NCBI RefSeq assembly: GCF_000284015.1
Contig: NC_016943.1
Location: 2,459,541-2,523,540 of the forward strand
DNA: 64,000 nt
Source of the DNA: Blastococcus saxobsidens DD2
GTDB lineage: Bacteria; Actinomycetota; Actinomycetes; Mycobacteriales; Geodermatophilaceae
Direction of reading: 5' to 3'
Shown: one piece after another, positions 15,251 to 40,199 of the stretch
Layout: each line of letters starts with the position of its first letter
How positions within the stretch are numbered: position 1 is the stretch's first letter
Notes under the pieces: generated by a model
Databases searched by the model: none
Told to the model about the DNA's origin: nothing
What the model saw: only the letters and a program-made list of their open reading frames with translations
Translations under genes and position numbers: made by a program

Positions 15251-15847
15251 ATGGTCGAACCGGCTGCCCCGGTCCTGGCGAAGGTCGTGCTGCGCGAGAA
15301 CCTCCTCGCCCGGCGGCGGGCCCGCCCGGTCGCCGAACGCACCGCGGCCGCCGACGCGGTCGCCGCGGCGCTGGTCACCGGGCTCGCCGGCGTCCGCACG
15401 CTGGCCGCCTTCGTCCCGGACCCCACCGAACCGGGGAGCGGCCGGCTGCCGGACGCCTACGCCGAGCTCGGGGCCCGCATCCTGCTGCCGGTCGTGCCGG
15501 ACCGGGGCCGGGTGATGGACTGGGGCCGCTACACCGGCGACCTGGAGCCCGGCCGCTACGGCCTGTCCCACCCCACCGGTCCGCGGCTCGGTCCGACCGC
15601 GATCGGGGAGGCCGACGCCGTCGTCGTGCCGGCGCTGGCGGTGGACCGCGCCGGGATCCGGCTGGGCCGGGGAGGTGGCTACTACGACCGGGCGCTGGTG
15701 CACGCGCGGCCGGACGTCGTGCTGGTCACGGTCGTCTTCGACGACGAACGGGTGGACGAGCTGCCGCGCGAGGTGCACGACCGCCCGGTGACGGCGGTGG
15801 TGACGCCGTCCGGCGGCTGGGCGGACCTCGCGCCGCGCGGCGGCTGA
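15251..15847 (+). CDS. 5-formyltetrahydrofolate cyclo-ligase
   Basis: 198-residue enzyme converting 5-formyl-THF and ATP to 5,10-methenyl-THF. It shows the N-terminal basic segment (LARRRARP), GARILLPVV, and the nucleotide/substrate loop LGRGGGYYDRAL near residue 140. Its length is typical. The leaderless promoter sets the start. It converges on the ALDH gene of a folate operon, with a shared terminator between. It would recover the dead-end 5-formyl-THF formed when C1-folate flux is high. Confidence 0.9.
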   Translation: MVEPAAPVLAKVVLRENLLARRRARPVAERTAAADAVAAALVTGLAGVRTLAAFVPDPTEPGSGRLPDAYAELGARILLPVVPDRGRVMDWGRYTGDLEPGRYGLSHPTGPRLGPTAIGEADAVVVPALAVDRAGIRLGRGGGYYDRALVHARPDVVLVTVVFDDERVDELPREVHDRPVTAVVTPSGGWADLAPRGG

Positions 15848-15848
15848 C

Positions 15849-15876
15849 GGCCGGCGGGGGAGTGCCCCCGCCGGCC
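15849..15876. terminator. Bidirectional terminator between convergent genes
   Basis: Perfect 12-bp inverted repeat GGCCGGCGGGGG/CCCCCGCCGGCC around the loop AGTG, between the ends of the cyclo-ligase gene (+) and the ALDH gene (-). Confidence 0.75.
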
Positions 15877-15887
15877 GCCTGCGTGCG

Positions 15888-17381
15888 TCAGTGCGAGCCC
15901 TCGCCCGCGCCCGGGACCAGGTGCGCGATCGAGCGGGTGTCCTGGAAGGCGCGGACGCCCTCGATGCCCTGCTCGCGCCCCATGCCGGACTGCTTCATGC
16001 CGCCGAACGGGGCCCGCAGGTCCAGCCGGGTGGCGCCGTGGTCGTTGACCCAGACGTAGCCCACCGCGAGCTGGGCGCCGAGCCGGTCGGCGGCCTCGGT
16101 GTCGGCGGTCCAGACCGAGCCGCACAGCCCACCCCAGGTGTCGTTCGCCAGCCGCACCGCCTCGGCGTCGTCGTCGAACGGGATCACCGGGATCACCGGC
16201 CCGAACTGCTCCTGGGTGACCACCCGGAGTGCCGGAGCGGGCTCGACGACGATGGCGGGGCGCACGAAGTTGCCCTCGGCGAGCTCCCCACCGGGCAGCT
16301 CGCCGAACTCCAGCACGGTCGCGCCGGAGTCCCGCGCCTCCTCGATGATCTCGGTGACGAACGCCTTCTGCGCGGACTGGTGCAGCGGCCCCATCGTGGT
16401 GCCCTCGGCCAGGGCGTGACCGAGGACGACCTTCTCCAGCCGCGCGGCCAGTCCGGCCACCACCTCGTCCATGCGGGAGCGGTGCACGTAGATCCGCTTG
16501 GCGGCCATGCAGATCTGGCCGGTGGTGTCGTAGATCCCGGCGTACAGCCGGTCGAGGTGCTCGTCGTCGAGGACGGCGTCGGCACGGATGATCGCCGGGT
16601 CGTTCCCGCCCAGCTCCAGGGTGACGCGGGTGAGGCTGCGGGAGGCCATCTCCATCATCCGCTTGCCGCCGTTCACGCTGCCGGTGAAGCAGATCTTGGC
16701 GACGTCGGGGTTGTCGACCAGCGGCCCCATCTCGGTGTCCTTGCCGGTCACGATGTTGATCACGCCCGGGGGCAACTTCTCGGCGACGCGCTGCACCAGG
16801 CGGGTGATCGCCAGCGGCGTGGTGGGCGGCGGCTTGATGACCGCGGTGTTGCCGGCCAGCAGGGCGTGGGGGAGCGCCGCGCCGAGGATGGCGATCGGCC
16901 AGTTGAACGGCACGATGATGCTCACCACGCCGAGCGACTGGTAGCCGACCGTGGTCTCGACGGGGATCCCCGGCGCGGGCGGCAGCACCGTCACCTGGTC
17001 CACCTCGTCGGCCAGCGAGAGCGCCAGCTGCCACCGGATCTCGAAGACCAGGGCATCGATCCAGGACTCCATGCGGATCTTGCCGTTCTCCAGCGCCAGC
17101 ACCCGCGCGTCCTCGTCGCGGTCGTCGGCGATCCCCTCGATGGCGGCGGCCATCGTGGCCGCCCGTTCGGTGGCGGGCAGGGCCGACCAGGCCGGATAGG
17201 CCTCCTTGGCCGCCGCGACGGCGTCCGCCACGTCGTCCTCCGTCGCCGCCGCCGCGTGCCCCACGACGACGCCCGGCCGGGCCGGGTCGACGACATCCAG
17301 CACGTTCGCGGTGGATCGGGTCTCCCCGCCGATGTAGAGCCCCGTCGTCACCGGAGCCGTCGTGCTCAACAGGTCGGTCAT
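15888..17381 (-). CDS. NAD(P)-dependent aldehyde dehydrogenase
   Basis: 497-residue ALDH-superfamily enzyme. It has the segment PFNWPI, the FTGSVNGGK cofactor loop, the catalytic Glu in LELGGND, the catalytic Cys291 in GQICMAAKR, and the C-terminal PFGGMKQSGMGRE. ATG 17381 has GAGAGG about twelve bases upstream. It is the last gene of metF-folD-orf-fchA-folP-aldh. An aromatic aldehyde such as vanillin or syringaldehyde would fit the neighbouring O-demethylation genes, but ALDH substrate cannot be read from these motifs. Confidence 0.88.
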   Translation of the reverse strand: MTDLLSTTAPVTTGLYIGGETRSTANVLDVVDPARPGVVVGHAAAATEDDVADAVAAAKEAYPAWSALPATERAATMAAAIEGIADDRDEDARVLALENGKIRMESWIDALVFEIRWQLALSLADEVDQVTVLPPAPGIPVETTVGYQSLGVVSIIVPFNWPIAILGAALPHALLAGNTAVIKPPPTTPLAITRLVQRVAEKLPPGVINIVTGKDTEMGPLVDNPDVAKICFTGSVNGGKRMMEMASRSLTRVTLELGGNDPAIIRADAVLDDEHLDRLYAGIYDTTGQICMAAKRIYVHRSRMDEVVAGLAARLEKVVLGHALAEGTTMGPLHQSAQKAFVTEIIEEARDSGATVLEFGELPGGELAEGNFVRPAIVVEPAPALRVVTQEQFGPVIPVIPFDDDAEAVRLANDTWGGLCGSVWTADTEAADRLGAQLAVGYVWVNDHGATRLDLRAPFGGMKQSGMGREQGIEGVRAFQDTRSIAHLVPGAGEGSH

Positions 17382-17461: not shown

Positions 17462-18334
17462 TCAGGTACGCGTCAGGCCGGGGACCACCTTCCTGCGCGA
17501 GACACCCGCCGGTGCGCCCGAGCCGACGGCGGCGACCACGCGCACCGCGTCGGCGCTGGCCGGCACGTCGTGCACCCGCACGCCCCAGGCCCCGGCCCGG
17601 GCCGCGAGCACGGTGGTGGCCACGGTGGCGCCCTCCCGTCGGTCGGGTGGCCGAGGGAGCCCGCCGTCGTCGGCGAGGACCGCCCCCAGGAAGCGCTTCC
17701 GGGAGGCGCCGACCAGGACCGGGAGACCCAGATCCGTGAGCGTCTCCAGGCCGGCGAGGAGGGCGAGGTCGTGCTCGGGCTGCTTCGCGAAGCCCAGGCC
17801 CGGGTCGATCACGAGCCGGCCGGGGGAGACCCCGGCGGCCAGCGCGTCGTCCACGCGCTCGCACAGTTCCCGCCGGACGTCGGCCACCACGTCGTCGTAG
17901 GTGGCTGCGGCGTACATGTCGCGGATGCGCCCGCGCCGGTGCACGAGCACCCAGGGAACGCCGGCCTCGGCGACCACCCGCGCCATGTCGCGGTCCGCGA
18001 GGCCGCCGCTGACGTCGTCGACCATGACCGCACCGGCGTCCAGCGCCGCTGCGGCCACCTGTGCGCGGGTGGTGTCGACGCTCACCGCGACCCCGAGCCG
18101 GGAGAGTGCGGCGACCACGGGCAGCACGCGGCAGCACTCCGTTGCCGCGTCCACGCGCGCGGCGCCGGGACGCGTCGACTCCCCGCCGACGTCGACGTAG
18201 TCGGCGCCCGCGGCGGTCATCGCCAGCCCGTGCGCGACGGCCGCGTCGACGGTGTCGTGGCGGCCCCCGTCGGAGAACGAATCGGGGGTGACGTCGAGGA
18301 TCCCCATGACGACGCACCGGCCGGGACGGAGCAT
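17462..18334 (-). CDS. folP: Dihydropteroate synthase with two Asn-to-Asp changes in the pterin site
   Basis: 290-residue DHPS, close in layout to mycobacterial FolP1: VGGESTRPGA, SVDTTRAQ, LVIDPGLGFAK, VGASRKRFLG and GVRVHDV are all present. Two positions normally Asn in the family are Asp here: the strand-1 motif reads GILDVTPDSF (usually NVTPDSF) and the next reads MVDDVSGG (usually NDVSGG). Both codons are GAC. The second Asn contacts the pterin in known structures, so activity may be altered. Start: ATG 18334, or GTG 18337 one codon earlier; GGAGG lies 7-10 bases upstream. It follows the cyclodeaminase gene by 34 bases. Confidence 0.85.
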   Translation of the reverse strand: MLRPGRCVVMGILDVTPDSFSDGGRHDTVDAAVAHGLAMTAAGADYVDVGGESTRPGAARVDAATECCRVLPVVAALSRLGVAVSVDTTRAQVAAAALDAGAVMVDDVSGGLADRDMARVVAEAGVPWVLVHRRGRIRDMYAAATYDDVVADVRRELCERVDDALAAGVSPGRLVIDPGLGFAKQPEHDLALLAGLETLTDLGLPVLVGASRKRFLGAVLADDGGLPRPPDRREGATVATTVLAARAGAWGVRVHDVPASADAVRVVAAVGSGAPAGVSRRKVVPGLTRT

Positions 18335-18368
18335 CACGGCCGGGCCTCCGACCGCAGCTGTGGAACGG

Positions 18369-19010
18369 TCATCGGCGCATCCGCTCCCGTACCGCGGCCG
18401 CCACCTCGTCGGCACGCCGCGCCAGGTCCTCGACCTCCGCCACTGCCGCGGCGAGGTCGTCCCGCGCCCGCTCGTCGCCGATGCCGGCCAGGTTGGCCTC
18501 CACGGCCAGCCGCGCCGTCGTGGCGGCGGCCCGGGCGGCTGCGGTGGCCGCGGCCACGTCGCTGACGAGGTTGCGGTTCGCGACCGGCAGCACCCGCTCG
18601 GCCAGCGACACGAGCTCGGCGGCCGAGCGGAGGATCGCCAGCGGCGGCCGCGTGGCGTCCAGCTGCGCCTCGGAGAGCCGGCGTCGCCGTACCGCCTGCT
18701 CGTCGGCGGTGCCGCGCGGCAGCTTCATCGCCGCGGCGACGGCCGAGAACGCTGTCTCGTCGTCGGCGGCGGCCTGGAGACAGGCGTCGCGCTGCGCGTC
18801 GGCGGCCGCCACGATCTCGCCGACCAGCTCGGCGTGCTCCTCGTCCGTGGTGAACCGGCCGACCATCGCGACCAGGGACGCCGACAGGGCCCCCTCGACC
18901 GCGGCGGTGGCACCCGCCCCCGGCGCGGCCATGCGCGCGGCCAGCTGGCCGAGGAACTCGCCGAGGGACTGGCCGTCGACCTCGTCCCGCCCGTCGCCCC
19001 CGCCGCTCAC
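18369..19010 (-). CDS. Formiminotetrahydrofolate cyclodeaminase-family protein (FTCD_C / FchA-like)
   Basis: 213-residue, almost entirely helical protein of the cyclodeaminase/cyclohydrolase family. It has LGEFLGQLAARMAAPGAGATAA near residue 15, the family's PGGG-like folate loop, and ANRNLVSDVAAATAAA near 150. The family converts 5-formimino-THF to 5,10-methenyl-THF or acts as methenyl-THF cyclohydrolase. The GTG start overlaps the stop of the 42-codon frame upstream (GTGA). In a folD-metF operon it would interconvert C1-folates. No histidine-degradation genes are nearby, which favours a general C1 role. Confidence 0.82.
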   Translation of the reverse strand: MSGGGDGRDEVDGQSLGEFLGQLAARMAAPGAGATAAVEGALSASLVAMVGRFTTDEEHAELVGEIVAAADAQRDACLQAAADDETAFSAVAAAMKLPRGTADEQAVRRRRLSEAQLDATRPPLAILRSAAELVSLAERVLPVANRNLVSDVAAATAAARAAATTARLAVEANLAGIGDERARDDLAAAVAEVEDLARRADEVAAAVRERMRR

Positions 19011-19135
19011 GGGCCGGCCACCGGCGAGGTGTCGACGGCGGCCTCGGGCCGGGCGTGCGCGAACGCCCGTCCGCCGGCCGGCCGGGCGGCCTCGCCCGCG
19101 CGCAGGTCGTCGAGCCGCGCCCAGGGCCGGCTCAT
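19007..19135 (-). CDS. 42-residue coupled reading frame, possible PabB N-terminal remnant
   Basis: Begins in a TGATG overlap with the folD stop and ends in a GTGA overlap with the cyclodeaminase start, so both boundaries look like translational coupling. The product starts MSRPWARLDDLRAGEA and contains AFAHARPEAAVDTS. This resembles the first residues of actinobacterial aminodeoxychorismate synthase I (WARFDDL-type start), but the catalytic region is absent. It may be a genuine small protein or the stub of a deleted pabB. The resemblance is from memory and weak. Confidence 0.4.
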   Translation of the reverse strand: MSRPWARLDDLRAGEAARPAGGRAFAHARPEAAVDTSPVAGP

Positions 19136-19995
19136 CAGTCCGCGATGCCCTGCTGGACCCGGGCCGCGGTGAGGGTGTTGGCCAGCAGCATGGCGATCGT
19201 CATCGGGCCGACGCCACCCGGCACCGGCGTGATCGCGCCGGCCACCTCGGAGACCGGGCCGAACTCGACGTCGCCGTGCAGCCCGTCCTCGCCGCGGTGG
19301 ATGCCGACGTCGATCACCGTGGCGCCGGGCTTGACGGCATCGGCACCGACCAGGCCGGGGATCCCCGCGGCGACCACCAGCACGTCGGCGCGCCGGCACA
19401 CCTCGGCGAGATCCCGCGTGCGGGAGTGGGCCATGGTCACCGTCGCGTGGGCGGCCAGCAGCAACTGCGCCATGGGCTTGCCGACCAGCACCGACCGGCC
19501 GACGACGACGGCCTCCGCGCCGGACAGGGACACCTCGTACTCCTCCAGCAGCCGCATCACCCCGGCCGGCGTGCACGGCCGGAGCGCGGCGCGGCCCTGG
19601 GCGAGGCGCCCCGCGTTCAGCGTGGTCAGCCCGTCGACGTCCTTCTCCGCGGGGATGCGGGCCAGGAGCGCATCGGAGTCCAGGTGGCCCGGAGTCGGGA
19701 GCTGGAGCAGGATGCCCGACACCGCCGGGTCGGCGGCCAGCTCGTCGACGAGCGCGGCGGCCGTCTCCTGGTCGACGTCGCCGGGCAGGTGGCGGTGCAG
19801 GTCCTGCATGCCGGCGGCGACGCTCAGGCGGCGCTTGCTGCGGACGTAGACCTCCGAGGCCGGATCGTCCCCGATGAGGATCGTGGCCAGGCCGGGAGGG
19901 GTACCGCCCGCGGCGACGAGCCGGTCCACGCCGCCCGCCACGTCCTCACGCACCTTCTTGGCGACGGCGCTCCCGTCGATGATCCGCGCGGTCAT
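19135..19995 (-). CDS. folD: Bifunctional methylene-THF dehydrogenase/methenyl-THF cyclohydrolase
   Basis: 286-residue FolD. It has SEVYVRSKRR with the catalytic Lys near residue 54, GILLQLPTPGHLD, PAEKDVDGL, PCTPAGVMRLL, VVGRSVLVGKPMA for the dinucleotide, and TPVPGGVGPMTIAML near the C-terminus. It interconverts 5,10-methylene-, methenyl- and 10-formyl-THF. It follows metF by 109 bases and is coupled to the next frame by TGATG. With PurU (39327) it would allow oxidation of a methyl group to formate. Confidence 0.95.
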   Translation of the reverse strand: MTARIIDGSAVAKKVREDVAGGVDRLVAAGGTPPGLATILIGDDPASEVYVRSKRRLSVAAGMQDLHRHLPGDVDQETAAALVDELAADPAVSGILLQLPTPGHLDSDALLARIPAEKDVDGLTTLNAGRLAQGRAALRPCTPAGVMRLLEEYEVSLSGAEAVVVGRSVLVGKPMAQLLLAAHATVTMAHSRTRDLAEVCRRADVLVVAAGIPGLVGADAVKPGATVIDVGIHRGEDGLHGDVEFGPVSEVAGAITPVPGGVGPMTIAMLLANTLTAARVQQGIAD

Positions 19996-21457: not shown

Positions 21458-23044
21458 GTGGAGCGAGCAGGACGGGCCGCCGGCACGTCGGCCGTTCCGC
21501 GGACCACGGCAGCCCAGGTCCTGGAGCACGCGCCGGACGGGCTGGTGGTCATCGACGCCGAGGCGCGCTTCGTCGAGGCCAACCCCGCGGCTGTGCTCCT
21601 GTGCGGCCTGGATCCGGACCGCGTCGCCGGCAACCGGTCACCGTTCCCGGTGCCCGACGACGCGCCCGCCACCAGGACCGGCGAGCTCACCGTGGCCTGG
21701 GAACCCGCGCCCGGTCAGCGACGGGAGTTCGCCTACGTGGTCGCCGCGGTGCCCGGGCAGCCGCGGTGGATCGTCTCCTTCCGGGACGTCACCCTCAGCC
21801 GGTTGCGCGAGCGGCGGCTGGCCGCGATCGCCAAGGCGGCCTCGAACGTGGCGTCGAAGCGTTCGCTGGTCGGCACCCTGGAGGCGCTGGCTCAGGAGGT
21901 CGCGCGCACCGACGCCCTCGCCGGGGTGCAGGTCCTGACCGTCAACTCGTCCGGGGACCGGTTGCACGTCATGGGCGTCGCCGGCTTCGGCCGCGAGGTG
22001 CCGTTCTTCGACAAGCTCATGGAATGCCGTGCCCTGGGCGCCCGCCTGATGATGCTGGACGCCCTGGAGAGCCGGGAGCCGCTGGTCGCGCCGAACCGGT
22101 ACGAGGCCGTCATGCGGGACCCGGCGTGGCGGCCCCTGCACGAGGTCATGCGGCATCCCCGGTGGGACTGGTTCGTCAGCGTGCCCCTCCTCGCCCGCGG
22201 GGAGCCGGTCGGCATCCTGAACGCCTTCTTCGCGCCCGGCCAGATCGTCGGCGACACCGAGCTGGAGTTCCTCCTCGCCATGGCGGAGCAGGCCGCGATG
22301 GCGGTGGACCATGCCGCGCTGATGGAACGGGAACGGGACGTCGCCCGGCGGGAGGAGCGGCAGAAACTCGCCCGTGACCTGCACGACTCGGTGGTGCAGC
22401 AGGTCTTCTCGATGATGATGCAGGCGCGGTCGCTCGGCGTGCTGGTCGCTCGGGGGCTGCCCCCCACCCCGGACAAGGTGGCCCAGGTGGCCGACGACCT
22501 GAGCACCAGTGCCGAGGACGTCCTGGCCGATCTGCGCGGCATGGTGGTGGAGCTGCGGCCGGCGGCGAGCACGGCGGCCGGCCTGGCCTCGGCGCTGCGG
22601 TCGCTGGTGGACACGACCGGGGCCCGGACCGACCTGGCGGTGTCGCTCGACATCGACGATCCCGACGCCGAGATGGCCACGCTCGACCCCGACCTGCTCG
22701 AGGACGTCTACCGCGTCGTCGCCGAGGCGCTGCACAACAGCGTGAAGCACGCCCGGGCGTCGGCGATCCACGCCCGAGTGGCGGTGACCTCCCACGGACG
22801 CCGCCGGCGCCTCGTCGCCGAGGTGGCCGACGACGGCTGTGGGCTGAGCTCCGAGCACGCCCCCTCCGGCGGGTCGGCGTCGAGCGGGTTCGGCATGACG
22901 GTGATGCGCGAACGGGCGGCCCGCTGGGGCGGCGCCGTCCGGGTGCGGCAGCCGGCCGGCGGTGGGACGAGCGTGCTGCTCAGCCTGCCGCTGCCGACGT
23001 CCCTGCCCGTGGGGCCGGCGGACGACGAGGAGGAGATCCCGTGA
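21458..23044 (+). CDS. PAS-GAF sensor histidine kinase (NarL-type, HisKA_3)
   Basis: 528-residue cytosolic kinase with no membrane segment. PAS domain about 20-120 (DGLVVIDAEARFVEANPAA), GAF domain about 135-290 (WFVSVPLLARGEPVGILNAF), HisKA_3 with the phospho-accepting His309 in LARDLHDSVVQQVF, and HATPase with N-box HNSVKHA, G1 DDGCGL and G2 GFGMTVMRERAA. GTG 21458 follows a strong GGAAGGAGGGG site. It overlaps the response regulator by GTGA. The soluble PAS/GAF sensors suggest detection of a small intracellular molecule or redox state. Its place between the C1 and ring-cleavage genes makes an aromatic signal plausible. Confidence 0.9.
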   Translation: MERAGRAAGTSAVPRTTAAQVLEHAPDGLVVIDAEARFVEANPAAVLLCGLDPDRVAGNRSPFPVPDDAPATRTGELTVAWEPAPGQRREFAYVVAAVPGQPRWIVSFRDVTLSRLRERRLAAIAKAASNVASKRSLVGTLEALAQEVARTDALAGVQVLTVNSSGDRLHVMGVAGFGREVPFFDKLMECRALGARLMMLDALESREPLVAPNRYEAVMRDPAWRPLHEVMRHPRWDWFVSVPLLARGEPVGILNAFFAPGQIVGDTELEFLLAMAEQAAMAVDHAALMERERDVARREERQKLARDLHDSVVQQVFSMMMQARSLGVLVARGLPPTPDKVAQVADDLSTSAEDVLADLRGMVVELRPAASTAAGLASALRSLVDTTGARTDLAVSLDIDDPDAEMATLDPDLLEDVYRVVAEALHNSVKHARASAIHARVAVTSHGRRRRLVAEVADDGCGLSSEHAPSGGSASSGFGMTVMRERAARWGGAVRVRQPAGGGTSVLLSLPLPTSLPVGPADDEEEIP

Positions 23045-23703
23045 ACGTGGCCGATCCGATCCGGGTCCTCGTGGTGGACGACCACGCGGTGGTACGCCGC
23101 GGGGTGATCGCCTACCTCGAGGCGCTCGAGGACGTCGAGGTGGCCGACGAGGCCGGCGACGGGCAGGAGGCGCTGGACCTGCTCTCCCGGGCCGCGGCGC
23201 ACGGCGAGCTCCCCGACGTCGTCCTGATGGACCTGCAGATGCCCGGGATGGACGGGGTGACGGCGACCGGTGAGGTGCTCCGCCGGTTTCCCGGCCTCAA
23301 GGTGGTGATCCTCACCAGCTTCGGCGAGAGCGAGCGGGTGCACGCGGCGCTGGAGAGCGGGGCCTCCGGCTATCTGCTCAAGGACGCCCGGCCCGCCGAG
23401 GTCGATGCCGCGCTGCGGGCGGCGGTCCGCGACGAGGTGTTCCTCGACGCGGCGGTCACCCGGCGGCTCACCCAGGAGATGCGGGCGCCGCGCACCGGCC
23501 TGGGGGTGCTCACCGCCCGCGAGAAGGAGGTGCTGATCCTCATCGCGGAGGGCAGGTCGAACAAGGACATCGCCAAGCACCTGGTCATCAGCGAGCGGAC
23601 GGCCCGCACGCACGTCAGCCACCTGCTCACGAAGATGGGGCTCAGCTCACGGACCCAGGCGGCCCTGATGGCCGTCAAGGAGGGCCTCGTCCAGCCCCGG
23701 TGA
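23041..23703 (+). CDS. NarL/LuxR-family response regulator
   Basis: 220-residue regulator. Receiver domain 8-125 with acidic pair Asp13/Asp14, phosphorylation site Asp64 (VVLMDLQMPGMDG), Thr in LTSFGES and Lys in LLKDA; LuxR helix-turn-helix about 150-215 (LTAREKEVLILIAEGRSNKDIA). GTG 23041 overlaps the kinase stop (GTGA), so the pair is coupled. Likely targets are the ferredoxin, hydrolase and dioxygenase genes just downstream, where an 8-bp inverted repeat lies at 24187/24254. Confidence 0.92.
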   Translation: MNVADPIRVLVVDDHAVVRRGVIAYLEALEDVEVADEAGDGQEALDLLSRAAAHGELPDVVLMDLQMPGMDGVTATGEVLRRFPGLKVVILTSFGESERVHAALESGASGYLLKDARPAEVDAALRAAVRDEVFLDAAVTRRLTQEMRAPRTGLGVLTAREKEVLILIAEGRSNKDIAKHLVISERTARTHVSHLLTKMGLSSRTQAALMAVKEGLVQPR

Positions 23704-23796
23704 CTCCCGGCTTCCGTCACATGTCTCGTCGGCAGTGCGACAGCGGCGTCCGCCGCGCTCGGTCAACGGGGCGATCCGCGGGTGCGCCGGTCGGCC

Positions 23797-23802: not shown

Positions 23803-23861
23803 GGCGGACGTCGGACCCCCCGGGACCCGTCCCGCCCCGGCCGCACCACCGAGGAGGGCGC

Positions 23862-32275: not shown

Positions 32276-32973
32276 GGAACGTCGTCGTCACCGATCCGCC
32301 GCGCGCCGATGCAGGGGACGCCGAGCAGCTCGGCGGTTTCGGCGTCGCCACCGTGCACGAGGCACTGGGCCGGGTCGGCTACCTGGGCCCGGAGTTCCGC
32401 CCGGCCTGGCCGGGGGCGCGCATCGGCGGGACCGCCGTCACCGTGCTGTGCTGGCCGGGCGACAACCTGATGATCCACGTGGCCGTGGAGCAGTGCCGGC
32501 CGGGTGACGTGCTCGTCGTCGCGACGAACTCGCCGTCCACCGACGGGCTGTTCGGCGAGCTGTTCGCCACCGCCCTGGCGCAGCGCGGGGTCTGCGGCGT
32601 CGTCCTGGGCAGCGGTGTGCGTGATGTCGCCGAGCTGCGCGAGATGGGTTTCCCGGCCTGGTCCCGCGCGGTCAGCGCGCAGGGCTCGGTGAAGGCCACG
32701 GCGGGTGCGGTGAACGTGCCGATCGTGCTCGGCGGCCAGCCGGTCCACCCCGGCGACGTCGTGGTCGCCGACGACGACGGCGTCATGGTCGTGCCGCGCG
32801 CCGACGTGCCGCGGGCGCTGGCCGCGTCGCAGGCGCGGCTGGACAAGGAGGCCGGCGCCCGGGCGGCGTTCCAGGAGGGGGAGCTGGGGCTGGACCGCTA
32901 CGGCCTGCGGGGGAAGCTGCCCGACTTCGGCATCGAGTACGTCACCTACGAGAAGTTCGCGGAGGAGCTGTGA
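32272..32973 (+). CDS. ligK: 4-carboxy-4-hydroxy-2-oxoadipate aldolase (LigK/GalC-like, RraA fold)
   Basis: 233-residue RraA-fold aldolase. It has TVHEALGRVGYLGP, GTAVTVLCWPGDN, the substrate/metal loop GSGVRDVAELREMGFPAWSR and DDDGVMVVPR. Family members cleave 4-carboxy-4-hydroxy-2-oxoadipate to pyruvate and oxaloacetate, the last step of the 4,5-cleavage route, and also act on related 4-hydroxy-4-methyl-2-oxoglutarate. Coupled to gntR by ATGA. The C-terminal stretch (YGLRGKLPDFGIEYV) supports LigK over RraA. Confidence 0.9.
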   Translation: MRNVVVTDPPRADAGDAEQLGGFGVATVHEALGRVGYLGPEFRPAWPGARIGGTAVTVLCWPGDNLMIHVAVEQCRPGDVLVVATNSPSTDGLFGELFATALAQRGVCGVVLGSGVRDVAELREMGFPAWSRAVSAQGSVKATAGAVNVPIVLGGQPVHPGDVVVADDDGVMVVPRADVPRALAASQARLDKEAGARAAFQEGELGLDRYGLRGKLPDFGIEYVTYEKFAEEL

Positions 32974-33010
32974 GCGCCGCAGGCACCGGTTCCCCACTGG
33001 AGGTGTGTAC

Positions 33011-34087
33011 GTGAGCTACGACGGGACCGGCGTCCGGTGCACGATGCTGCGCGGCGGCACCTCGCGCGGCCTCTACCTCGAGGCGCGCGACCTGCCGGCC
33101 GGCACGGCCGAGCGCGACGACCTGCTGCTGCGGCTCATGGGGACGCCCGACCCGCGGCAGATCGACGGGCTCGGCGGAGCGACGACGCTGACCAGCAAGG
33201 TGGCGGTCGTCTCGCCGTCCGAGGCCCCCGACGTCGACGTCGACTACCTGTTCCTGCAGCTCGGCGTGGACGAGGCGACCGTCAGCGAGCGACAGAACTG
33301 CGGCAACATCCTGGCCGGCGTCGGGCCGTTCGCGGTGGAGCGCGGTCTCGTGCCGGCCGGCGACCCGGAGACCAGCGTGCGGATCCGCATGGTCAACTCC
33401 GACAGCGTCGCCGTCGCCACCTTCCCGACGCCCGAGGGCCGCGTGGAGTACCGCGGCGACGTGGAGATCGCCGGCGTGCCGGGAACCGCCGCCCCGGTCG
33501 TGCTCGCCTTCACCGACACCGAGGGCTCCGCCACCGGGAGCCTGCTGCCGACCGGGCACGTGCGCGACACGATCGAGGGCGTCGAGGCGACGTGCGTCGA
33601 CAACGGCATGCCGGTCGTCCTCGCGCTCGCCGGGTCGTTCGGGCTGACCGGCTACGAGTCGCACGAGGAGCTCGCCGCCGACACCGCGCTGCTGCAGCGG
33701 GTCGACGCGTTCCGCCGCAAGGCCGCCGAGCTGATGGGCATGGGGGACGTCTCGTCGGCGTCGGTGCCGAAGACGGCGCTGCTCGCGCCCGCGCGCGACG
33801 GCGGCCAGGTGTGCACCCGGTCGTTCATCCCGGTGCAGCCGCACAGCTCGATCGGCGTGCTCGGCGCCGTCAGCGTCGTGACCGGGATGCTGCTGCCGGA
33901 CGCGGTCGGGCACGAGCTGACCACCGACTGGCCGCGGGACACCTCGCAGGTCGACGTCGAGCACCCGACCGGCCACCTGCTGGTCGACGTCGTCGTCGAC
34001 AGCTCCGTGGCACCGCCCCGCGTCCTCCGCTCGGGGGTCGTCCGCACCGCCCGCAAGCTCTTCGAGGGGACCGCCTTCCCCCGCTAG
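33011..34087 (+). CDS. 4-oxalomesaconate tautomerase/isomerase (GalD/LigU-like, PrpF family)
   Basis: 358-residue PrpF-family isomerase: MLRGGTSRGLYL near residue 12, GLGGATTLTSKVAVV, QNCGNILAGVGPFAVE, RMVNSDSVAVATF, CVDNGMPVVLA and VQPHSSIGVLGAV. GalD and LigU interconvert tautomers or double-bond isomers of 4-oxalomesaconate so that the hydratase can act. GTG 33011 is chosen over GTG 33005 because GGAGG ends seven bases before it. It sits between ligK and further pathway genes, in one operon. Confidence 0.88.
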   Translation: MSYDGTGVRCTMLRGGTSRGLYLEARDLPAGTAERDDLLLRLMGTPDPRQIDGLGGATTLTSKVAVVSPSEAPDVDVDYLFLQLGVDEATVSERQNCGNILAGVGPFAVERGLVPAGDPETSVRIRMVNSDSVAVATFPTPEGRVEYRGDVEIAGVPGTAAPVVLAFTDTEGSATGSLLPTGHVRDTIEGVEATCVDNGMPVVLALAGSFGLTGYESHEELAADTALLQRVDAFRRKAAELMGMGDVSSASVPKTALLAPARDGGQVCTRSFIPVQPHSSIGVLGAVSVVTGMLLPDAVGHELTTDWPRDTSQVDVEHPTGHLLVDVVVDSSVAPPRVLRSGVVRTARKLFEGTAFPR

Positions 34088-34177: not shown

Positions 34178-35176
34178 GTGCCACCCCTGCACGACATCGC
34201 GCATCTGGCCCACGTCGAACTGCTGACCGACAAGCCCGAGGAGTGTCTCGACTTCTACGTCCGCTATCTCGGGATGACCGAGAACGGCTCGGCAGGGAAC
34301 TCGGTGTTCCTGCGCGCCTGGGACGACTACGAGAACACCACCATCAAGCTCACCGCGGCTCCGCGGCCCGGGGTGGGCCGGACCAACTTCCGGGCGAGCA
34401 CCCCCGAGGCGCTGCAGCGGCGGGTCGAGGCCATCGAGCAGACCGGGCAGGGCGTGGGCTGGCAGGACGGGGACCCCGGCTACGGGCCGGTCTACGTCTT
34501 CACCGACCCGGACGGCCACGAGATGGGCGTCTACTACGAGACCGAGTGGTACCGGCCCGAGGGCGCGCTCAAGCCGGCGCTGAAGAACCAGGCGCAGGCC
34601 TACCCCGGCCGCGGGGTCAGCGTGCGGCGGATCGACCACATCAACTACCTGGGCGTCACCCCGGTGGAGAACCGCGACTTCTTCGTGGACACCCTGGGCG
34701 CGATGATCACCGAGCAGATCGTGCTGGACGACGGCTCGGTCGCCGGCACCTGGACGACGTTCACGAACAAGGGCTACGACGTCGTCTGGACCAAGGACAA
34801 CACCGGCACCGCGGGCCGGCTGCACCACCTGTCGTTCGCCGTCGACAGCCGGGACGACATCATCCGGGCCGCCGACCTGGCGCTGGAGCACGGTGTCCAC
34901 ATCGAGACCGGACCGCACAAGCACACCATCCAGCAGAGCTTCTTCCTCTACGTCTGGGATCCGGCCGGCAACCGGATCGAGCTGGACAACCCTGCCGCCC
35001 GGCTGGTCTTCGCCCCCGACTGGCAGCCGATCGACTGGTCCGAGGCCGAGCGCGCCAAGGGCCAGGCGTGGGGCCTGAAGACGATCGAGACCTTCCACAC
35101 CCACGGGACGCCGCCGGTGACGCCCACGGGGGTGGACGGCGACGCCCCGGTCGGGTCCGAGGGCCAGGCCTCGTGA
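34178..35176 (+). CDS. VOC-family extradiol dioxygenase (catechol 2,3-dioxygenase-like)
   Basis: 332-residue two-domain type I extradiol protein. Metal ligands in the C-terminal domain are His of RIDHINYLGV (about residue 152), His of GRLHHLSFAVDS (about 216) and Glu of GNRIELDN (about 269). The first domain (8-140) keeps the fold (AHVELLTDKPEECLDFYV). It would cleave a second aromatic diol, unlike the type III LigAB, so the cluster may handle more than one substrate. GTG 34178 has AGGAGA four bases before it. It ends in a GTGA overlap with the dehydrogenase gene. Confidence 0.85.
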   Translation: MPPLHDIAHLAHVELLTDKPEECLDFYVRYLGMTENGSAGNSVFLRAWDDYENTTIKLTAAPRPGVGRTNFRASTPEALQRRVEAIEQTGQGVGWQDGDPGYGPVYVFTDPDGHEMGVYYETEWYRPEGALKPALKNQAQAYPGRGVSVRRIDHINYLGVTPVENRDFFVDTLGAMITEQIVLDDGSVAGTWTTFTNKGYDVVWTKDNTGTAGRLHHLSFAVDSRDDIIRAADLALEHGVHIETGPHKHTIQQSFFLYVWDPAGNRIELDNPAARLVFAPDWQPIDWSEAERAKGQAWGLKTIETFHTHGTPPVTPTGVDGDAPVGSEGQAS

Positions 35177-35997
35177 CGGTCGCCGTCGCCGTCCTGGGGC
35201 TCGGCGAGGCGGGATCGGAGATCGCCCGCGACCTGGTGGCCGCGGGAGCCGACGTCCGGGGGTACGACCCGCTGGGCCTCGCCGTGGACGGCGTACGGCA
35301 GCGGGGCTCCGAGGCCGAGGCGGTCGCCGACGCCGACGTCGTGCTGAGCGTCAACAGCTCCCACGACGCCGTGACGGCACTGGGCAACGCGCTGCCCGCG
35401 TTGCGCCCGGGCACGTTGTGGGCCGACCTCAACACCGCGAGCCCCGGCGTCAAGGTGGCACTGGCGGAGCGCGCCGCACCGCACGACGTCCCGGTGGTCG
35501 ACGTCGCCCTCATGTCGCCGGTGCCGGGCAAGGGCCTGCGTACGCCGATGCTCGTCTCCGGGGACGGGGCGGCCCGCTTCCGCGAGGTGTTCGCCGGCCT
35601 GGGGGCCGACGTCACCGTCCAGGAGGGGCCGGCCGGGACGGCGATCTCCCGCAAGCTGCTGCGCAGCGTCTTCTACAAGGGCCTGGCCGCCGCCGTCGTG
35701 GAGGCGCTGCGCGGGGCCGAGACCGCGGGCTGCGCGGACTGGCTGCGCGGCAACATCGCCGCCGAGCTGGCCGGCTTCGACGAGCGGACCGTCGACCGGC
35801 TCGTGGACGGCACCCACACCCACGCCCGGAGGCGGGCCGACGAGATGACCGCGGCGACCGAGCAGTTGCAGGAGCTGGGGGTGCCCGCTCGCGTGGCCTC
35901 AGCCGCGCGCGATCTCCTGGCCGAGCTGCGCGATGCCGCGGCCGCCGGGCAGGTGGGGACCGCCGCGGTGGCCGCCCGGGGAGCGGAGCACCGGTGA
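35173..35997 (+). CDS. NAD(P)-binding 6PGDH/hydroxyisobutyrate-dehydrogenase-like protein with DUF1932-type C-terminus
   Basis: 274-residue protein. N-terminal Rossmann domain with GLGEAGSEIARDL (about residues 8-20) and DVVLSVNSSHDA. The C-terminal helical domain (about 165-270) has RKLLRSVFYKGLAAAVVEAL and RRADEMTAATEQLQELG, resembling DUF1932. Coupled on both sides by GTGA overlaps (VOC gene before, ligJ after). It could oxidise a hydroxy or semialdehyde intermediate and might replace LigC; no direct evidence of substrate. Confidence 0.78.
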   Translation: MTVAVAVLGLGEAGSEIARDLVAAGADVRGYDPLGLAVDGVRQRGSEAEAVADADVVLSVNSSHDAVTALGNALPALRPGTLWADLNTASPGVKVALAERAAPHDVPVVDVALMSPVPGKGLRTPMLVSGDGAARFREVFAGLGADVTVQEGPAGTAISRKLLRSVFYKGLAAAVVEALRGAETAGCADWLRGNIAAELAGFDERTVDRLVDGTHTHARRRADEMTAATEQLQELGVPARVASAARDLLAELRDAAAAGQVGTAAVAARGAEHR

Positions 35998-37013
35998 TCA
36001 TCGACTGCCACGGGCACTACACCACGGCCCCGGCGGCGCACACCGCCTGGCGGGAGCAGCAGGTCGCGGCGTGGCAGGCCGGGACGACCCCGCCGGCGTA
36101 CCCCTCGATCAGCGACGACGAGATCCGCGAGACGATCGAGGCCGGTCAGTTGCGGCTGATGGACGAGCGGGGCATCGACGTCACCCTCTTCTCACCCCGG
36201 GCCTCGGCGATGGCGCACCACGTCGGCGACGCCGCGGTGAGCCTGGAGTGGGCCCGCCGGTGCAACGACCTGATCGACCGCGTCGCCACGCTGTTCCCCG
36301 ACCGCTTCGTGGGGGTCGCGCAGCTGCCCCAGTCGCCGGGTGCGGACCTCACCGGTTCCATCGCCGAGCTGCGCCGCTGCGTCGAGGAGCTCGGGTTCGT
36401 GGGGTGCAACCTCAACCCCGACCCCAGCGGCGGCCACTGGACCTCACCGGTGCTGACCGACCGGAGCTGGTACCCGTTCTACGAGGCGATGGTCGAGCTG
36501 GACGTGCCGGCGATGGTGCACGTGTCGGCGTCGGCGACCCCGGCGTTCCACGCCACCGGCGCCTACTACATCAACGCCGACACCACCGCGTTCATGCAGC
36601 TGCTGCAGGGCAGCCTCTTCAGCGACCTGCCCGGCCTGCGCCTGGTGGTCCCGCACGGTGGGGGAGCGGTGCCGTACCACTGGGGGCGCTACCGGGGGCT
36701 GGCCGACATGCTGGAGCAGCCGCCGGTGGAGACCACCGTCATGGGCAACGTCTTCTTCGACACCTGCGTCTACCACCAGCCCGGGATCGACCTGCTGCTG
36801 GAGGTCATCGACACCCGGAACATCCTGTTCGGCTCGGAGATGGTGGGCGCGGTGCGGGGGATCGATCCGCGCACCGGCCACCACTTCGACGACACCCGCC
36901 GCTACGTCGAGGCCTCGGCGCTGGACGAGGAGGGGCGCGCGGCGGTCTTCGAGGGCAACGTCCGCCGGGTGTACCCGCGGCTGGGTGCGGCTCTGGCGCG
37001 TGCCGGGCGGTGA
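35994..37013 (+). CDS. ligJ: 4-oxalomesaconate hydratase (LigJ-like amidohydrolase)
   Basis: 339-residue amidohydrolase-fold protein whose start IIDCHGHYTTAPAAHTAW is characteristic of LigJ. Other family segments are RMMDERG-like QLRLMDERGIDVTLFSPRA, GVAQLPQSPGADLTGS, GCNLNPDPSGGHWTSP, MVHVSASA, VVPHGGGAVPYHWGRYRG and LFGSEMVGAVRGIDP. LigJ hydrates the 4-oxalomesaconate form to 4-carboxy-4-hydroxy-2-oxoadipate. GTG 35994 overlaps the preceding stop (GTGA). It completes the LigB-LigU-LigJ-LigK sequence of steps. Confidence 0.9.
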   Translation: MIIDCHGHYTTAPAAHTAWREQQVAAWQAGTTPPAYPSISDDEIRETIEAGQLRLMDERGIDVTLFSPRASAMAHHVGDAAVSLEWARRCNDLIDRVATLFPDRFVGVAQLPQSPGADLTGSIAELRRCVEELGFVGCNLNPDPSGGHWTSPVLTDRSWYPFYEAMVELDVPAMVHVSASATPAFHATGAYYINADTTAFMQLLQGSLFSDLPGLRLVVPHGGGAVPYHWGRYRGLADMLEQPPVETTVMGNVFFDTCVYHQPGIDLLLEVIDTRNILFGSEMVGAVRGIDPRTGHHFDDTRRYVEASALDEEGRAAVFEGNVRRVYPRLGAALARAGR

Positions 37014-37661: not shown

Positions 37662-37921
37662 TCGTCCTCCGGGTGCCGGCAGGGGCGCCGTCCCGGGCGC
37701 GCCGTTCGGCACAGCGTGCCCGCTCGGTCCGGCGAGCGGAAGAGACCGATCGCCGGCCCGGGCTGCCCCGACAGGGGCGGCGTCCGCCCGGCGCGGCGGT
37801 CGTAGGCTCCGGGCAGGTCCGGTGCCGACCCGCCTCCCGGATCGCGGACGGCGCCGGAGGGGCGCGGTACCGGCGCATCGACACCCGTGCCGCGCACGGC
37901 AACGACGACGAGGAGACGCAC

Positions 37922-39085
37922 GTGTCCGGTCCCACCCACCGCCCGGGAACCGACCAGGCTCCCGCCGATCGCTCCGGGCCACCCTTCCGCGCCGACCACG
38001 TCGGCAGCCTCCTGCGCCCGGAGCGGCTGCTCCGCGCCCGTGCCGACCGCGCGTCGGGCCGCATCGACGACGCGGAGCTCCGCGTCGTCGAGGACGACGC
38101 GATCGCCGACGCCGTCCGCATGCAGCGGGACCTCGGCCTGCGCACCGCGACCGACGGGGAGTTCCGGCGGGCCACCTGGCACATGGACTTCATCTACGCG
38201 ATCTCCGGCATCCGCCGCGTGGAGGGCGAAGGCCGCCCGGTGCACTTCAAGAACGCCGACGGGTCGATCGACTGGGCTCCGGCCGGGCTGCACGTCGACG
38301 GGCCGCTCGCGATCGAGGAGCCCATCTTCGGAGACCACGTCGACTTCCTGCGGAGCGTCGCGTCCCCGGAGCAGACGCCGAAGCTGACGATCCCGTCGCC
38401 GTCGATGGTGCACTACCGCGGCGGGGCGGCGTCCATCGATCCGCAGGTCTACCCCGACGAGGACGCGTTCTGGGCGGCGCTGTCGGCGGCGTACGCGTCC
38501 CAGATCCGCAGCGTCGCCGCGCTCGGCTGCACGTACCTGCAGCTGGACGACACCAGCCTCGCCTACCTCAACGACCCGGCGCAGCGCGCGGAGATCGCCG
38601 CGCAGGGGCGGGACGCCGAGCACCTGCACGAGCGGTACATCCGCCAGGTGAACGCCGCGCTCGCGGGTCGGCCGGAGGGGCTCGCCGTCACCACGCACCT
38701 GTGCCGGGGGAACTTCCGCTCGTCCTGGGTGGCGGAGGGCGGGTACGACTTCGTCGCCGAGTCGCTCTTCGGTGGGCTGGAGGTCGACGGGTTCTTCCTC
38801 GAGTACGACGACGCCCGCTCCGGGGGCTTCGAGCCGCTGCGCTTCGTGCCGCCGGGCAAGCGGGTCGTCCTGGGTCTGGTCACGACCAAGCGCGCCGAGC
38901 TCGAGCGGAAGGACGACCTCAAGCGGCGCATCGACGAGGCGGCGAGGTACGTGCCGCTGGAGCAGCTGTGCCTGTCGCCGCAGTGCGGCTTCTCCTCGAC
39001 GGTCGAGGGGAACGCCCTCACGCTGGACGACCAGCGGGCCAAGCTGGAGCTGGTCGTGGAGACGGCGGCGGAGGTCTGGGGCTGA
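37922..39085 (+). CDS. MetE C-terminal-like cobalamin-independent methyltransferase
   Basis: 387-residue protein of the UROD/MetE-C family. It has FRADHVGSLLRP, DGEFRRATWHMDF, YLQLDDTSLAYL, zinc-ligand region THLCRGNFRSSW (His, Cys), GLVTTKRAELE and the distal Cys in LSPQCGFSS. It lacks the MetE N-terminal half, like YxjG/YxjH proteins. It could move the methyl of 5-methyl-THF to homocysteine or another thiol, giving a second outlet for LigM-derived methyl groups. GTG 37922 follows GAGGAGA by six bases. The acceptor is not certain. Confidence 0.82.
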   Translation: MSGPTHRPGTDQAPADRSGPPFRADHVGSLLRPERLLRARADRASGRIDDAELRVVEDDAIADAVRMQRDLGLRTATDGEFRRATWHMDFIYAISGIRRVEGEGRPVHFKNADGSIDWAPAGLHVDGPLAIEEPIFGDHVDFLRSVASPEQTPKLTIPSPSMVHYRGGAASIDPQVYPDEDAFWAALSAAYASQIRSVAALGCTYLQLDDTSLAYLNDPAQRAEIAAQGRDAEHLHERYIRQVNAALAGRPEGLAVTTHLCRGNFRSSWVAEGGYDFVAESLFGGLEVDGFFLEYDDARSGGFEPLRFVPPGKRVVLGLVTTKRAELERKDDLKRRIDEAARYVPLEQLCLSPQCGFSSTVEGNALTLDDQRAKLELVVETAAEVWG

Positions 39086-39326
39086 CCCGCCGCCGTCGGC
39101 GATCCGTGCCGCGGCTACGTCTATTGTCGCAGCCGACCCGACACCTCCTGCCGTTCAGGGGAGGTCATCTGCGGCATTCGGCGGACGTGATCCACGCCAT
39201 AGGTTGGCAGTGAGTGGCCCGTCCTCGGCGCCCCGGCTCCGGGGCTCGCGTAGCGGCACGGGCCGGAAGGCCCCGACAGCGGCCGGCGCATCGGCCCCGG
39301 GGGAGCGATCCGTGAGAGGAGGCGTG

Positions 39327-40199
39327 ATGACGCGACCCGCCGACGGTCAGCACGGCGTCCTGGTGCTGTCCTGCGAGGACGCACCGGGCATCGTGCACGC
39401 GGTGTCCGGCCTGCTCGTGCAGGAGCGGTGCACGATCCTGGAGAGCCACCAGTTCGACAGCCCCACGACCGGCAGGTTCTACATGCGGGTCGAGTTCTCG
39501 CACGTCGACGGCACGCCGCTGGACTTCCCGGCGCTGCGCCGGGCCTTCGAGGGGACCGCCGAGCGTTTCGGGATGTCCTGGCGGCTGGCCGACGCTGCCG
39601 AGCGGCAGCGCGTGCTGATCATGGTGAGCAAGTACGCGCACTGCCTCAACGACCTGCTGTTCCGCAACTCGATCGGCGAGCTCAACCTCGACGTCGTCGC
39701 GATCGTCTCCAACCACCCCACCCTGGAGCACATCGCCGACTTCTACGGCATCCCCTTCAGGCACATCCCGGTCACCCGTGACACCAAGCCGGAGGCCGAG
39801 GCCGCACTGCTGGACATCGTGCGCGAGCAGCGGGTCGACCTGGTGGTCCTGGCGCGCTACATGCAGATCCTCTCGGACGACCTGTGCCGGGAGCTGGGGG
39901 GCAAGGCCATCAACATCCACCACTCGATGCTGCCCAGCTTCAAGGGCGCCCGTCCGTACCACCAGGCGCACGCCCGGGGGGTCAAGTTCATCGGGGCGAC
40001 GGCGCACTACGTCACCGCCGACCTCGACGAGGGGCCGATCATCGAGCAGGAGATGCTCCGGGTCGGCCACGCGCTGGACCCGGAGGAGCTCGCCGCCCGT
40101 GGCCGGGAGGCCGAGACGCGGGCGCTGGCGCACGCAGTGCGCTGGCACACCGAGAACCGGGTCATCATCTACGGGAACCGGACCGTCGTCTTCGAGTGA
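39327..40199 (+). CDS. purU: 10-formyltetrahydrofolate deformylase (PurU; LigH-like)
   Basis: 290-residue enzyme. N-terminal ACT domain (about 8-85: VLVLSCEDAPGIVHAVSGLL) and C-terminal formyltransferase-like domain (about 95-285) with VVAIVSNHPTLEHIADFYGIPF, VLARYMQILSDDLC, INIHHSMLPSFKGARPYHQA with the catalytic His, and the Asp in ADLDEGPIIEQ. It hydrolyses 10-formyl-THF to formate and THF. ATG 39327 has GAGAGGAGG four bases upstream. With LigM, MetF and FolD it closes the cycle that regenerates free THF, as LigH does in Sphingobium. Confidence 0.92.
   Translation: MTRPADGQHGVLVLSCEDAPGIVHAVSGLLVQERCTILESHQFDSPTTGRFYMRVEFSHVDGTPLDFPALRRAFEGTAERFGMSWRLADAAERQRVLIMVSKYAHCLNDLLFRNSIGELNLDVVAIVSNHPTLEHIADFYGIPFRHIPVTRDTKPEAEAALLDIVREQRVDLVVLARYMQILSDDLCRELGGKAINIHHSMLPSFKGARPYHQAHARGVKFIGATAHYVTADLDEGPIIEQEMLRVGHALDPEELAARGREAETRALAHAVRWHTENRVIIYGNRTVVFE

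Follow-up and report, generated by a model that had tools for sequence, protein, structure and literature searches.

Gene content of the island

The DNA analysed here, called the window, is a stretch of 64,000 bases from Blastococcus saxobsidens DD2, positions 2459541–2523540 of a single-contig genome of 4,875,340 bases. It contains two enzymes of the LigM/DesA family of tetrahydrofolate (THF)-dependent aryl O-demethylases, and these lie together with a set of one-carbon (C1) folate genes, all within 25 kb. An earlier reading made from the letters alone (the sequence-only reading) had proposed a folate-dependent demethylation module at this place; every gene that it named is present, with a profile match in the window. 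The demethylases and the folate genes are:

28389–29789, minus strand: LigM, predicted THF-dependent vanillate/3-O-methylgallate O-demethylase (NF047885, PDB 5tl4, tree)
26776–28137, minus strand: second LigM/DesA-family O-demethylase (putative), in an actinobacterial clade of its own (profile scores, tree, residues)
20105–~20968, minus strand: catabolic-type MetF, S6MTHFR type (PDB 7xg9; GTG start at 20968 proposed)
19135–19995, minus strand: second FolD, methylene-THF dehydrogenase/cyclohydrolase (PF02882, PF00763; NF010783 343.7 bits, cut-off 333)
18369–19010, minus strand: cyclodeaminase-fold FTCD_C protein, probable methenyl-THF cyclohydrolase, FchA-like (PF04961 142 bits)
17462–18415, minus strand: extra dihydropteroate synthase (DHPS), FolP-like (TIGR01496 285 bits, cut-off 163)
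15053–15847, plus strand: 5-formyl-THF cyclo-ligase, which would return stray 5-formyl-THF to the cycle (TIGR02727 123.5 bits, cut-off 84.9)
37970–39085, plus strand: short MetE-like protein, possible branch from methyl-THF to methionine (NF005085 431 bits, cut-off 313; PDB 1ypx 320 bits)
~39327–40199, plus strand: PurU, predicted 10-formyl-THF deformylase (TIGR00655 324 bits, cut-off 286)

FolD, the cyclo-ligase, DHPS and the MetE-like methyltransferase, all named in the sequence-only reading, each score above their curated cut-offs. A minus-strand run consists of MetF, FolD, the FTCD_C protein, DHPS and an aldehyde dehydrogenase, with short gaps or overlapping genes; from these coordinates, the run may be one operon. 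Divergent from MetF is a plus-strand run of a histidine kinase, a response regulator, a ferredoxin-like protein, an alpha/beta hydrolase, a muconolactone-isomerase-like (MIase-like) protein, LigA and LigB. Both demethylases are on the minus strand, LigM upstream of the second. Downstream is another plus-strand run – an MFS transporter, a GntR regulator, LigK, 4-oxalomesaconate tautomerase, a catechol-2,3-dioxygenase-like protein, LigJ, the MetE-like protein and PurU. The aldehyde dehydrogenase, the whole of the divergent run, and the downstream run from the MFS transporter to LigJ are additional to the genes named in the sequence-only reading.

Two O-demethylases of the LigM/DesA family

LigM scores 885 bits on the NCBIfam model NF047885 (curated cut-off 580) and 703 bits on PDB 5tl4, and the match with LigM of Sphingobium SYK-6 spans its length. 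Two demethylase trees were made, one of 48 rows with a single GcvT-like outgroup row and one of 79 rows with five outgroup rows. Two loci that are copies of window genes (L003 and L004) were excluded from both, and a third (L104, 18 stops in the frame used) from the 48-row tree, which is the only one of the two to hold the window LigM. There it nests with SYK-6 LigM (support 100/99), apart from GcvT. The closest relatives among those listed are from Blastococcus (92–94% identity). Four residues – Tyr247, His60, Tyr31 and Arg122 – are kept in all 86 aligned LigM rows, many of them close kin; the numbering and roles of these residues are ones we assume, Arg122 presumably being substrate-binding. 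Conservation of the methyl-transferring tyrosine across the demethylase family is described in PMC9296663 (this paper is cited from excerpts throughout, as are PMC6888825, PMC5547118, PMC7797058, PMC3621897 and PMC12314914). Judged from its sequence, LigM is predicted to transfer the methyl group to THF.

The sequence-only reading had named grouping with glycine, sarcosine or dimethylsulfoniopropionate (DMSP) aminomethyltransferases as the result that would speak against it, and no such grouping was found, in trees without a characterised DmdA. On the corresponding models LigM reaches 47 bits (gcvT, TIGR00528), 44 (DmdA) and 43 (soxA), with a highest GcvT-type score of 77 on NF001567. Both demethylases miss every one of these cut-offs: 47–51 bits on TIGR00528 (cut-off 236), 72–77 on NF001567 (300), 41–44 on DmdA (410), 43–49 on soxA (1164) and 60–63 on trimethylamine N-oxide demethylase (1100).

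Three side observations concern the family. The LigM of Nocardioides sp. PD653-B2 (L015), ca. 90–91% identical to the window LigM, is placed among Blastococcus and Geodermatophilus sequences (nearest join supported at 81), and from its sequence and position was likely acquired by transfer. In Microbacterium and Sinomonas, demethylase-like proteins encoded near LigM make up a third group on a long branch (1.23; support 100; 79-row tree); its members are L031_16356, L045_14897, L068_11468, L080_8503, L085_8528 and five further rows. The Blastococcus genome has a further GCV_T match above cut-off, the fifth, at G000:C1:4344112.

The second demethylase, also of the GCV_T fold, reaches 574 of the 800 bits required by the DesA model NF047633 and 492 of the 580 required by the LigM model, which makes it a family member below either curated class. 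It stays inside the LigM/DesA family in both trees. In the 48-row tree, 21 actinobacterial rows including this protein form a group (100/99); the Sphingobium DesA (898 bits, above the DesA cut-off) lies outside it, joined to the LigM side (99/95). A tree constrained to place the protein with that DesA was worse by 24.9 log units (approximately unbiased (AU) test, p 0.0124, for a group named post hoc from the tree, with long branches and a single DesA reference). In the alignment, Tyr247 and His60 are kept in all 42 DesA-like rows, again many of them close kin. Tyr31 is replaced by Phe in all 42, Asn250 and Thr251 are lost, and Arg122 is replaced by His (33 rows, the window protein included), Trp (8) or Pro (1), while the Sphingobium DesA retains both Arg122 and Tyr31. 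With Tyr247 and His60 kept and a clade of its own, the protein should work as a THF-dependent demethylase yet not be filed as DesA, an identity rejected on the NF047633 cut-off, the clade and the loss of Arg122. The pair of LigM/DesA-like demethylases in the sequence-only reading was therefore right as to family, and 28389–29789 is LigM, but 26776–28137 is not an orthologue of the sphingomonad DesA by tree, AU test or residues. Since it is not, and since Arg122 is gone, syringate is a candidate substrate only.

That this enzyme forms a separate specificity class and acts on some other methoxy or methylenedioxy aromatic is a serious possibility, somewhat short of an even chance. The clade, the AU result and the residue changes all point that way, and THF-dependent demethylenases of Rhodococcus and Arthrobacter belong to the same superfamily (PMC5547118). 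The gene neighbourhood speaks more for syringate: LigJ, LigK and the tautomerase suit gallate-type products, the enzyme lies beside LigAB both in the window and on a Rhodococcus opacus plasmid described below, and its kind is present in 37 of 80 LigM loci. These loci are the best 80 of 580 confirmed stretches, with flanks of at most 10 kb and some short contigs, so that absences from them are weak evidence; a gene was counted where the match covered at least 40% of the query. Proteins called ‘DesA-like aminomethyltransferases’ are reported from metagenome-assembled genomes of Solirubrobacterales, Thermoleophilaceae, Rubrobacter and Steroidobacteraceae (PMC9296663), and are likened to this one by description only.

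C1-folate enzymes, conserved linkage and ring opening

The island MetF is divergent, with 52 bits on the standard MetF model (cut-off 294), and the genome encodes a canonical housekeeping MetF elsewhere (325 bits). Its best match by far among solved structures is PDB 7xg9 (117.5 bits, E 6.7e-33; E 4.5e-5 for 1v93), and it is closer to 7xg9 and 7xlf than to canonical MetF. The 7xg9 entry is named 5,10-methylenetetrahydrofolate reductase and is, we take it, S6MTHFR of SYK-6. In an alignment, the Glu, Asp and Gln columns that we assume to be catalytic are common to the island MetF, canonical MetF and eight relatives of the island type. S6MTHFR runs the reverse reaction, oxidising 5-methyl-THF (PMC12585457, a conference abstract), and by analogy the island MetF probably does the same. 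The MetF named in the sequence-only reading is thus present, as an S6MTHFR type rather than a housekeeping enzyme.

The other FolD of the genome is at G000:C1:4082993, and the island DHPS is one of five pterin-binding matches. PurU is the only one in the genome above its cut-off. It had been called ‘PurU/LigH-type’; the first half of the name is borne out, and the second was rejected, as 39327–40199 belongs to the deformylase family (TIGR00655) and not to the formate-THF ligase family, LigH being a 10-formyl-THF synthetase (PMC6888825).

The sequence-only reading had drawn its functional linkage from co-location. That linkage is strengthened, in sequence comparisons, by co-occurrence and adjacency in other genomes, synteny across families and the Rhodococcus plasmid. 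In a sample of 296 genomes of the class, Blastococcus saxobsidens DD2 included, 8 (again with this genome) have a LigM above the curated cut-off, and 7 of the 8 have an island-type MetF. Thresholds of 350 bits for the LigM family and 90 bits for MetF were then set post hoc, and 22 of 54 genomes with MetF matches were thereby discarded as weak. A LigM-family match of at least 350 bits is found in 14 genomes, this one included. An island-type MetF is present in 12 of them (again with this genome), compared with 20 of the remaining 282 (Fisher p 2.4e-11). In each of the 12, the MetF and LigM-family genes are on the same contig at a distance of 43–5914 bp. Because the genomes are related and the thresholds post hoc, the p value is a guide only; the adjacency counts stand.

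Within the 80 LigM loci, MetF is found in 46, FolD in 22, PurU in 26, LigB in 32 and LigK in 53, while the hydrolase and the isomerase-like protein are found in 29 each, the response regulator in 33, histidine kinase relatives in 30, FolP in 6 and FTCD_C in 3. The 46 MetF-bearing loci span 12 named families. Geodermatophilaceae and Pseudonocardiaceae have most of the set, Streptomycetaceae and Streptosporangiaceae only parts. Folate gene families being mostly universal, ordinary folate genes could in principle happen to be near ligM, but such chance neighbourhood is very improbable and was rejected. MetF and FolD are additional copies, MetF is adjacent in 12 of 12 genomes, synteny extends across families and to the Rhodococcus plasmid, and the estimated probability of placing one each of MTHFR, FolD, pterin-binding, PurU and Meth_synt_2 within 25 kb is ca. 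2e-10 (an illustrative post hoc figure that assumes independent placement).

Two side observations concern MetF. In three genomes with no strong LigM (G017, G205 and G274), the same type of MetF is within ca. 2 kb of another GCV_T-fold protein that scores 45–55 bits on the LigM model; MetF may serve other methyl-THF-making enzymes too. In Microbacteriaceae, 15 of the 26 LigM loci have a MetE-like gene and no MetF in the stretch (L027, L031, L038, L045, L052, L060, L063, L065, L068, L073, L074 and L081 among them). This gene is possibly a methionine sink for the methyl group, a suggestion confounded by the single lineage. A tally of MetF and MetE over the 80 loci (both 1, MetF only 45, MetE only 15, neither 19; Fisher p 3e-6) was left unused: all but one of the 16 loci with MetE come from Microbacteriaceae, and a single lineage can explain it.

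Genes for ring opening and the lower pathway occupy much of the rest of the island:

24383–25120, plus strand: alpha/beta hydrolase, possible 4-carboxy-2-hydroxy-6-methoxy-6-oxohexa-2,4-dienoate (CHMOD) hydrolase with a putative MgaC/DesC role (PF12697; precedes LigAB)
25122–25400, plus strand: MIase-like protein, possible tautomerase with a putative MgaD-like role (PF02426 109 bits)
25456–25824, plus strand: LigA, alpha subunit, protocatechuate 4,5-dioxygenase type (TIGR02792 122.5 bits, cut-off 108.6)
25817–26674, plus strand: LigB, catalytic beta subunit (NF009903 365 bits, cut-off 317; PDB 1b4u 312 bits)
32272–32973, plus strand: LigK, 4-carboxy-4-hydroxy-2-oxoadipate aldolase (NF006731 310.5 bits, cut-off 179; TIGR02798 281 bits, under its cut-off of 304.5)
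33005–34087, plus strand: 4-oxalomesaconate tautomerase, GalD type (NF033377 493 bits, cut-off 440)
34178–35176, plus strand: catechol-2,3-dioxygenase-like protein (TIGR03211 301 bits)
35994–37013, plus strand: LigJ, 4-oxalomesaconate hydratase (PDB 6dwv 573 bits; start re-assigned, the longer frame having no NCBIfam match)

Ring opening by LigAB uses O2. The sequence-only reading had proposed an oxygen-independent system, and this holds for the demethylation step but not for the ring opening that follows. Together, LigAB, the tautomerase, LigJ and LigK make up a route from gallate to pyruvate and oxaloacetate (PMC12314914 and general pathway knowledge). One sphingomonad protein query, run with no positive control, found no 2-pyrone-4,6-dicarboxylate (PDC) hydrolase (LigI) in the genome, and the intradiol dioxygenase family has four matches elsewhere in it; protocatechuate from vanillate may therefore exit by the ortho route. 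The Rieske VanA_C domain had no match in the genome, in a search for Rieske enzymes that was positive in 4 of 14 controls including C. glutamicum.

Immediately ahead of LigAB, the pair of hydrolase and isomerase-like genes recalls Pseudomonas NGC7, in which mgaAB, mgaC and mgaD are in one operon and MgaC is an alpha/beta-fold hydrolase (PMC12314914). It is possible, though the less probable course, that 3-O-methylgallate is ring-opened by LigAB instead of demethylated, with the pair releasing the second methyl group as methanol as in NGC7 and LigM serving mainly for vanillate. The same pair is kept next to LigAB on the R. opacus plasmid, and the lack of a PDC hydrolase match to the one query, run with no positive control, fits this course as well. 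However, LigM belongs to the vanillate/3-O-methylgallate demethylase family, and the pair is likened to MgaC and MgaD by gene order and description.

We regard the locus as very probably an aerobic catabolic island for methoxylated lignin aromatic acids. It appears from its sequence to carry, in an actinobacterium, aromatic methyl groups through folate to formate by dedicated folate enzymes, together with ring opening. The reactions in Blastococcus, the direction of MetF, the substrate of the second demethylase and the role of the extra DHPS we infer as follows. LigM would transfer the methyl group of vanillate or 3-O-methylgallate to THF, and the second demethylase would do the same from a related methoxy compound, with syringate the first candidate. 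The dedicated MetF would oxidise 5-methyl-THF to methylene-THF, FolD with the FTCD_C protein would convert this to formyl-THF, and PurU would release formate and THF, so that the methyl acceptor is regenerated. Part of the methyl could pass through the MetE-like protein to methionine, and the extra DHPS and the cyclo-ligase would keep the folate pool full. LigAB would open the ring, and the tautomerase, LigJ and LigK would carry the product to pyruvate and oxaloacetate.

The module could instead be assimilatory, feeding C1 units (methylene-THF, methionine) mainly to biosynthesis with no line dissimilating them to formate. SYK-6 is a precedent (PMC12585457), and the MetE-like protein is within the island. 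We consider this improbable: besides a canonical MetF, the genome encodes a GcvT-like protein (GCV_T, 273 bits) and, in the window some 9 kb away from the island, the glycine cleavage P-protein GcvP (49441–52764), and its only PurU above cut-off is in the island, where under assimilation it would waste C1 units.

Several observations weigh against the catabolic interpretation. GcvP is an alternative source of C1 units. FdhF/YdeP, the sole formate dehydrogenase model tried on the genome, gave matches below its cut-off only. The cyclodeaminase named in the sequence-only reading has the fold, but reaches 105 bits against an FchA cut-off of 275, which leaves its reaction conjectural. Also below cut-off are the MIase-like protein (TIGR03221 82.7 bits, cut-off 130.6) and the catechol-2,3-dioxygenase-like protein (TIGR03211 cut-off 320). 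Of the 32 genomes among the 296 with an island-type MetF, 20 have no strong LigM-family gene, so MetF is not a partner of LigM only. The stretch has no island-type MetF in 34 of the 80 loci, including 25 of 26 from Microbacteriaceae, and among the 46 loci that do have one, 10 match weakly (108–125 bits, 28–33% identity), 8 of them from Micrococcaceae. Even so, the sequence-only interpretation as a whole comes out largely right in silico.

Other features of the island are:

15888–17381, minus strand: aldehyde dehydrogenase (PF00171 416 bits; likely ATG start at 17381; the 25 NCBIfam matches listed all fall short of their cut-offs)
21458–23044, plus strand: sensor histidine kinase (PAS-GAF-HisKA_3)
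23041–23703, plus strand: NarL-type response regulator (domain match)
23700–24161, plus strand: 2Fe-2S ferredoxin-like protein (PF00111)
30171–31514, plus strand: MFS transporter (PF07690; no NCBIfam transporter model above cut-off)
31598–32275, plus strand: GntR/FCD regulator, between LigM and LigK (PF00392 and PF07729; no NCBIfam model above cut-off)

A luciferase-like protein at 12768–13871 was dropped, being below every NCBIfam cut-off.

Plasmid-borne relatives and known systems

The same core is found within 31 kb on plasmid pRop44186_a of R. opacus DSM 44186 (L097), which is typed as mobilizable. It shares with the window LigM (75% identity), the second demethylase (66.7%), MetF (49%), PurU (46%), FolD (44%), FolP (39.5%), the MetE-like protein (38%), LigA (annotated there as protocatechuate 3,4-dioxygenase), LigB, the hydrolase, the isomerase-like protein and the two-component system. 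Beyond the window set, it has genes for FolE, PabB, a FolC-like ligase (286 bits, cut-off 163), an FdhF/YdeP-type protein (958 bits, cut-off 582) and FdhD; LigJ and the tautomerase are unannotated in the stretch. The folate-supply genes of the window itself are FolP and the cyclo-ligase only. A match to FolP, PabB, FolE or FolC is found in the stretch in 19 of the 80 LigM loci, 16 of which also have MetF.

LigM/DesA-family proteins are also encoded on plasmids of the haloarchaea Halostagnicola larsenii (L107, NZ_CP007057 408000–452000) and Halobellus limi (L096). One of them, annotated as hypothetical, is 45.5% identical to the second demethylase of the window, and the plasmid MetF is 42–44% identical to the window MetF. 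The Halostagnicola stretch also has PurU, FolD, a FolC-FolP fusion and PabA/PabB-like genes. Haloarchaea are mentioned by none of the papers listed in a literature search (10 of 72). No paper linking folate-making genes with aryl demethylation was found in the literature searched, Yu et al. 2025, the likeliest relevant one, being outside its coverage.

We give about an even chance to a broader reading: a self-sufficient, horizontally moving methoxy-to-formate island with a folate demethylase, a reversed MetF, FolD, PurU and the folate-making FolP, PabA/B, FolC and FolE, common to Actinobacteria and haloarchaeal plasmids and smaller in sphingomonads, with the second demethylase a new specificity class. 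That folate-making genes accompany the demethylases suggests that THF becomes limiting once the vitamin has to carry methyl groups in bulk. Lignin holds much C1 carbon in its methoxy groups, and its conversion has a bottleneck at O-demethylation. If the catabolic interpretation is true, a Gram-positive, oxygenase-free demethylation island that disposes of its own C1 units and supplies some of its own folate would offer a kit of parts ready for use.

Sphingobium SYK-6, with ligM-metF-ligH and desA, is like the window in its LigM clade, S6MTHFR-type MetF, proposed FolD step and 4,5-cleavage genes (PMC6888825, PMC12585457). The window differs in having PurU in place of LigH (PMC6888825), FolD, an FchA-like protein and DHPS within the island, and a second demethylase that is no DesA orthologue. 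SYK-6 is said to be without a glycine cleavage system; unlike it, Blastococcus should have this source of C1 units, as its genome encodes GcvP. A plasmid cluster of Sphingobium TomTYG72 (L099) shares the hydrolase, metF, purU and folD with the window and has a FolB-like protein (62 bits, under the cut-off of 72). It differs in that its sole LigM/DesA-family gene in the stretch is a sphingomonad DesA (898 bits, cut-off 800), with vanA and PDC hydrolase genes nearby.

The chloromethane kit of Methylobacterium plasmid pCMU01 has a dedicated metF2 with folD, purU and folC2 and oxidises methyl-THF towards formate, with methyl entry by the corrinoid proteins CmuA/CmuB and not by a GcvT-fold demethylase; to judge from the excerpt, the principle is thus already known (PMC3621897). 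Agrobacterium fabrum Atu1418-1420 is like the window in its LigM-type demethylase, MetF-like protein (29% identical to SYK-6 MetF) and GntR regulator, and differs in that FolD, PurU and folate-making genes go unmentioned in the excerpt (PMC7797058). The A. fabrum regulator responds to 5,10-methylene-THF, and by analogy the window GntR might sense a folate too. Folate demethylation in actinobacteria, which the sequence-only reading had called notable, is no surprise in itself, given the prediction of such enzymes there (PMC9296663) and the demethylenases cited above (PMC5547118). According to PMC12585457, Yu et al. 2025 described similar sets of genes from many further bacteria, so some of the distribution given here may have been published already. 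Known or predicted before this work are folate-dependent aryl O-demethylation, its MetF partner and actinobacterial LigM. What is new relative to these systems is a Gram-positive island with an additional FolD, an S6MTHFR-type MetF, the only PurU of its genome above cut-off and an extra DHPS, the conservation of this island, and a second demethylase of a separate clade.

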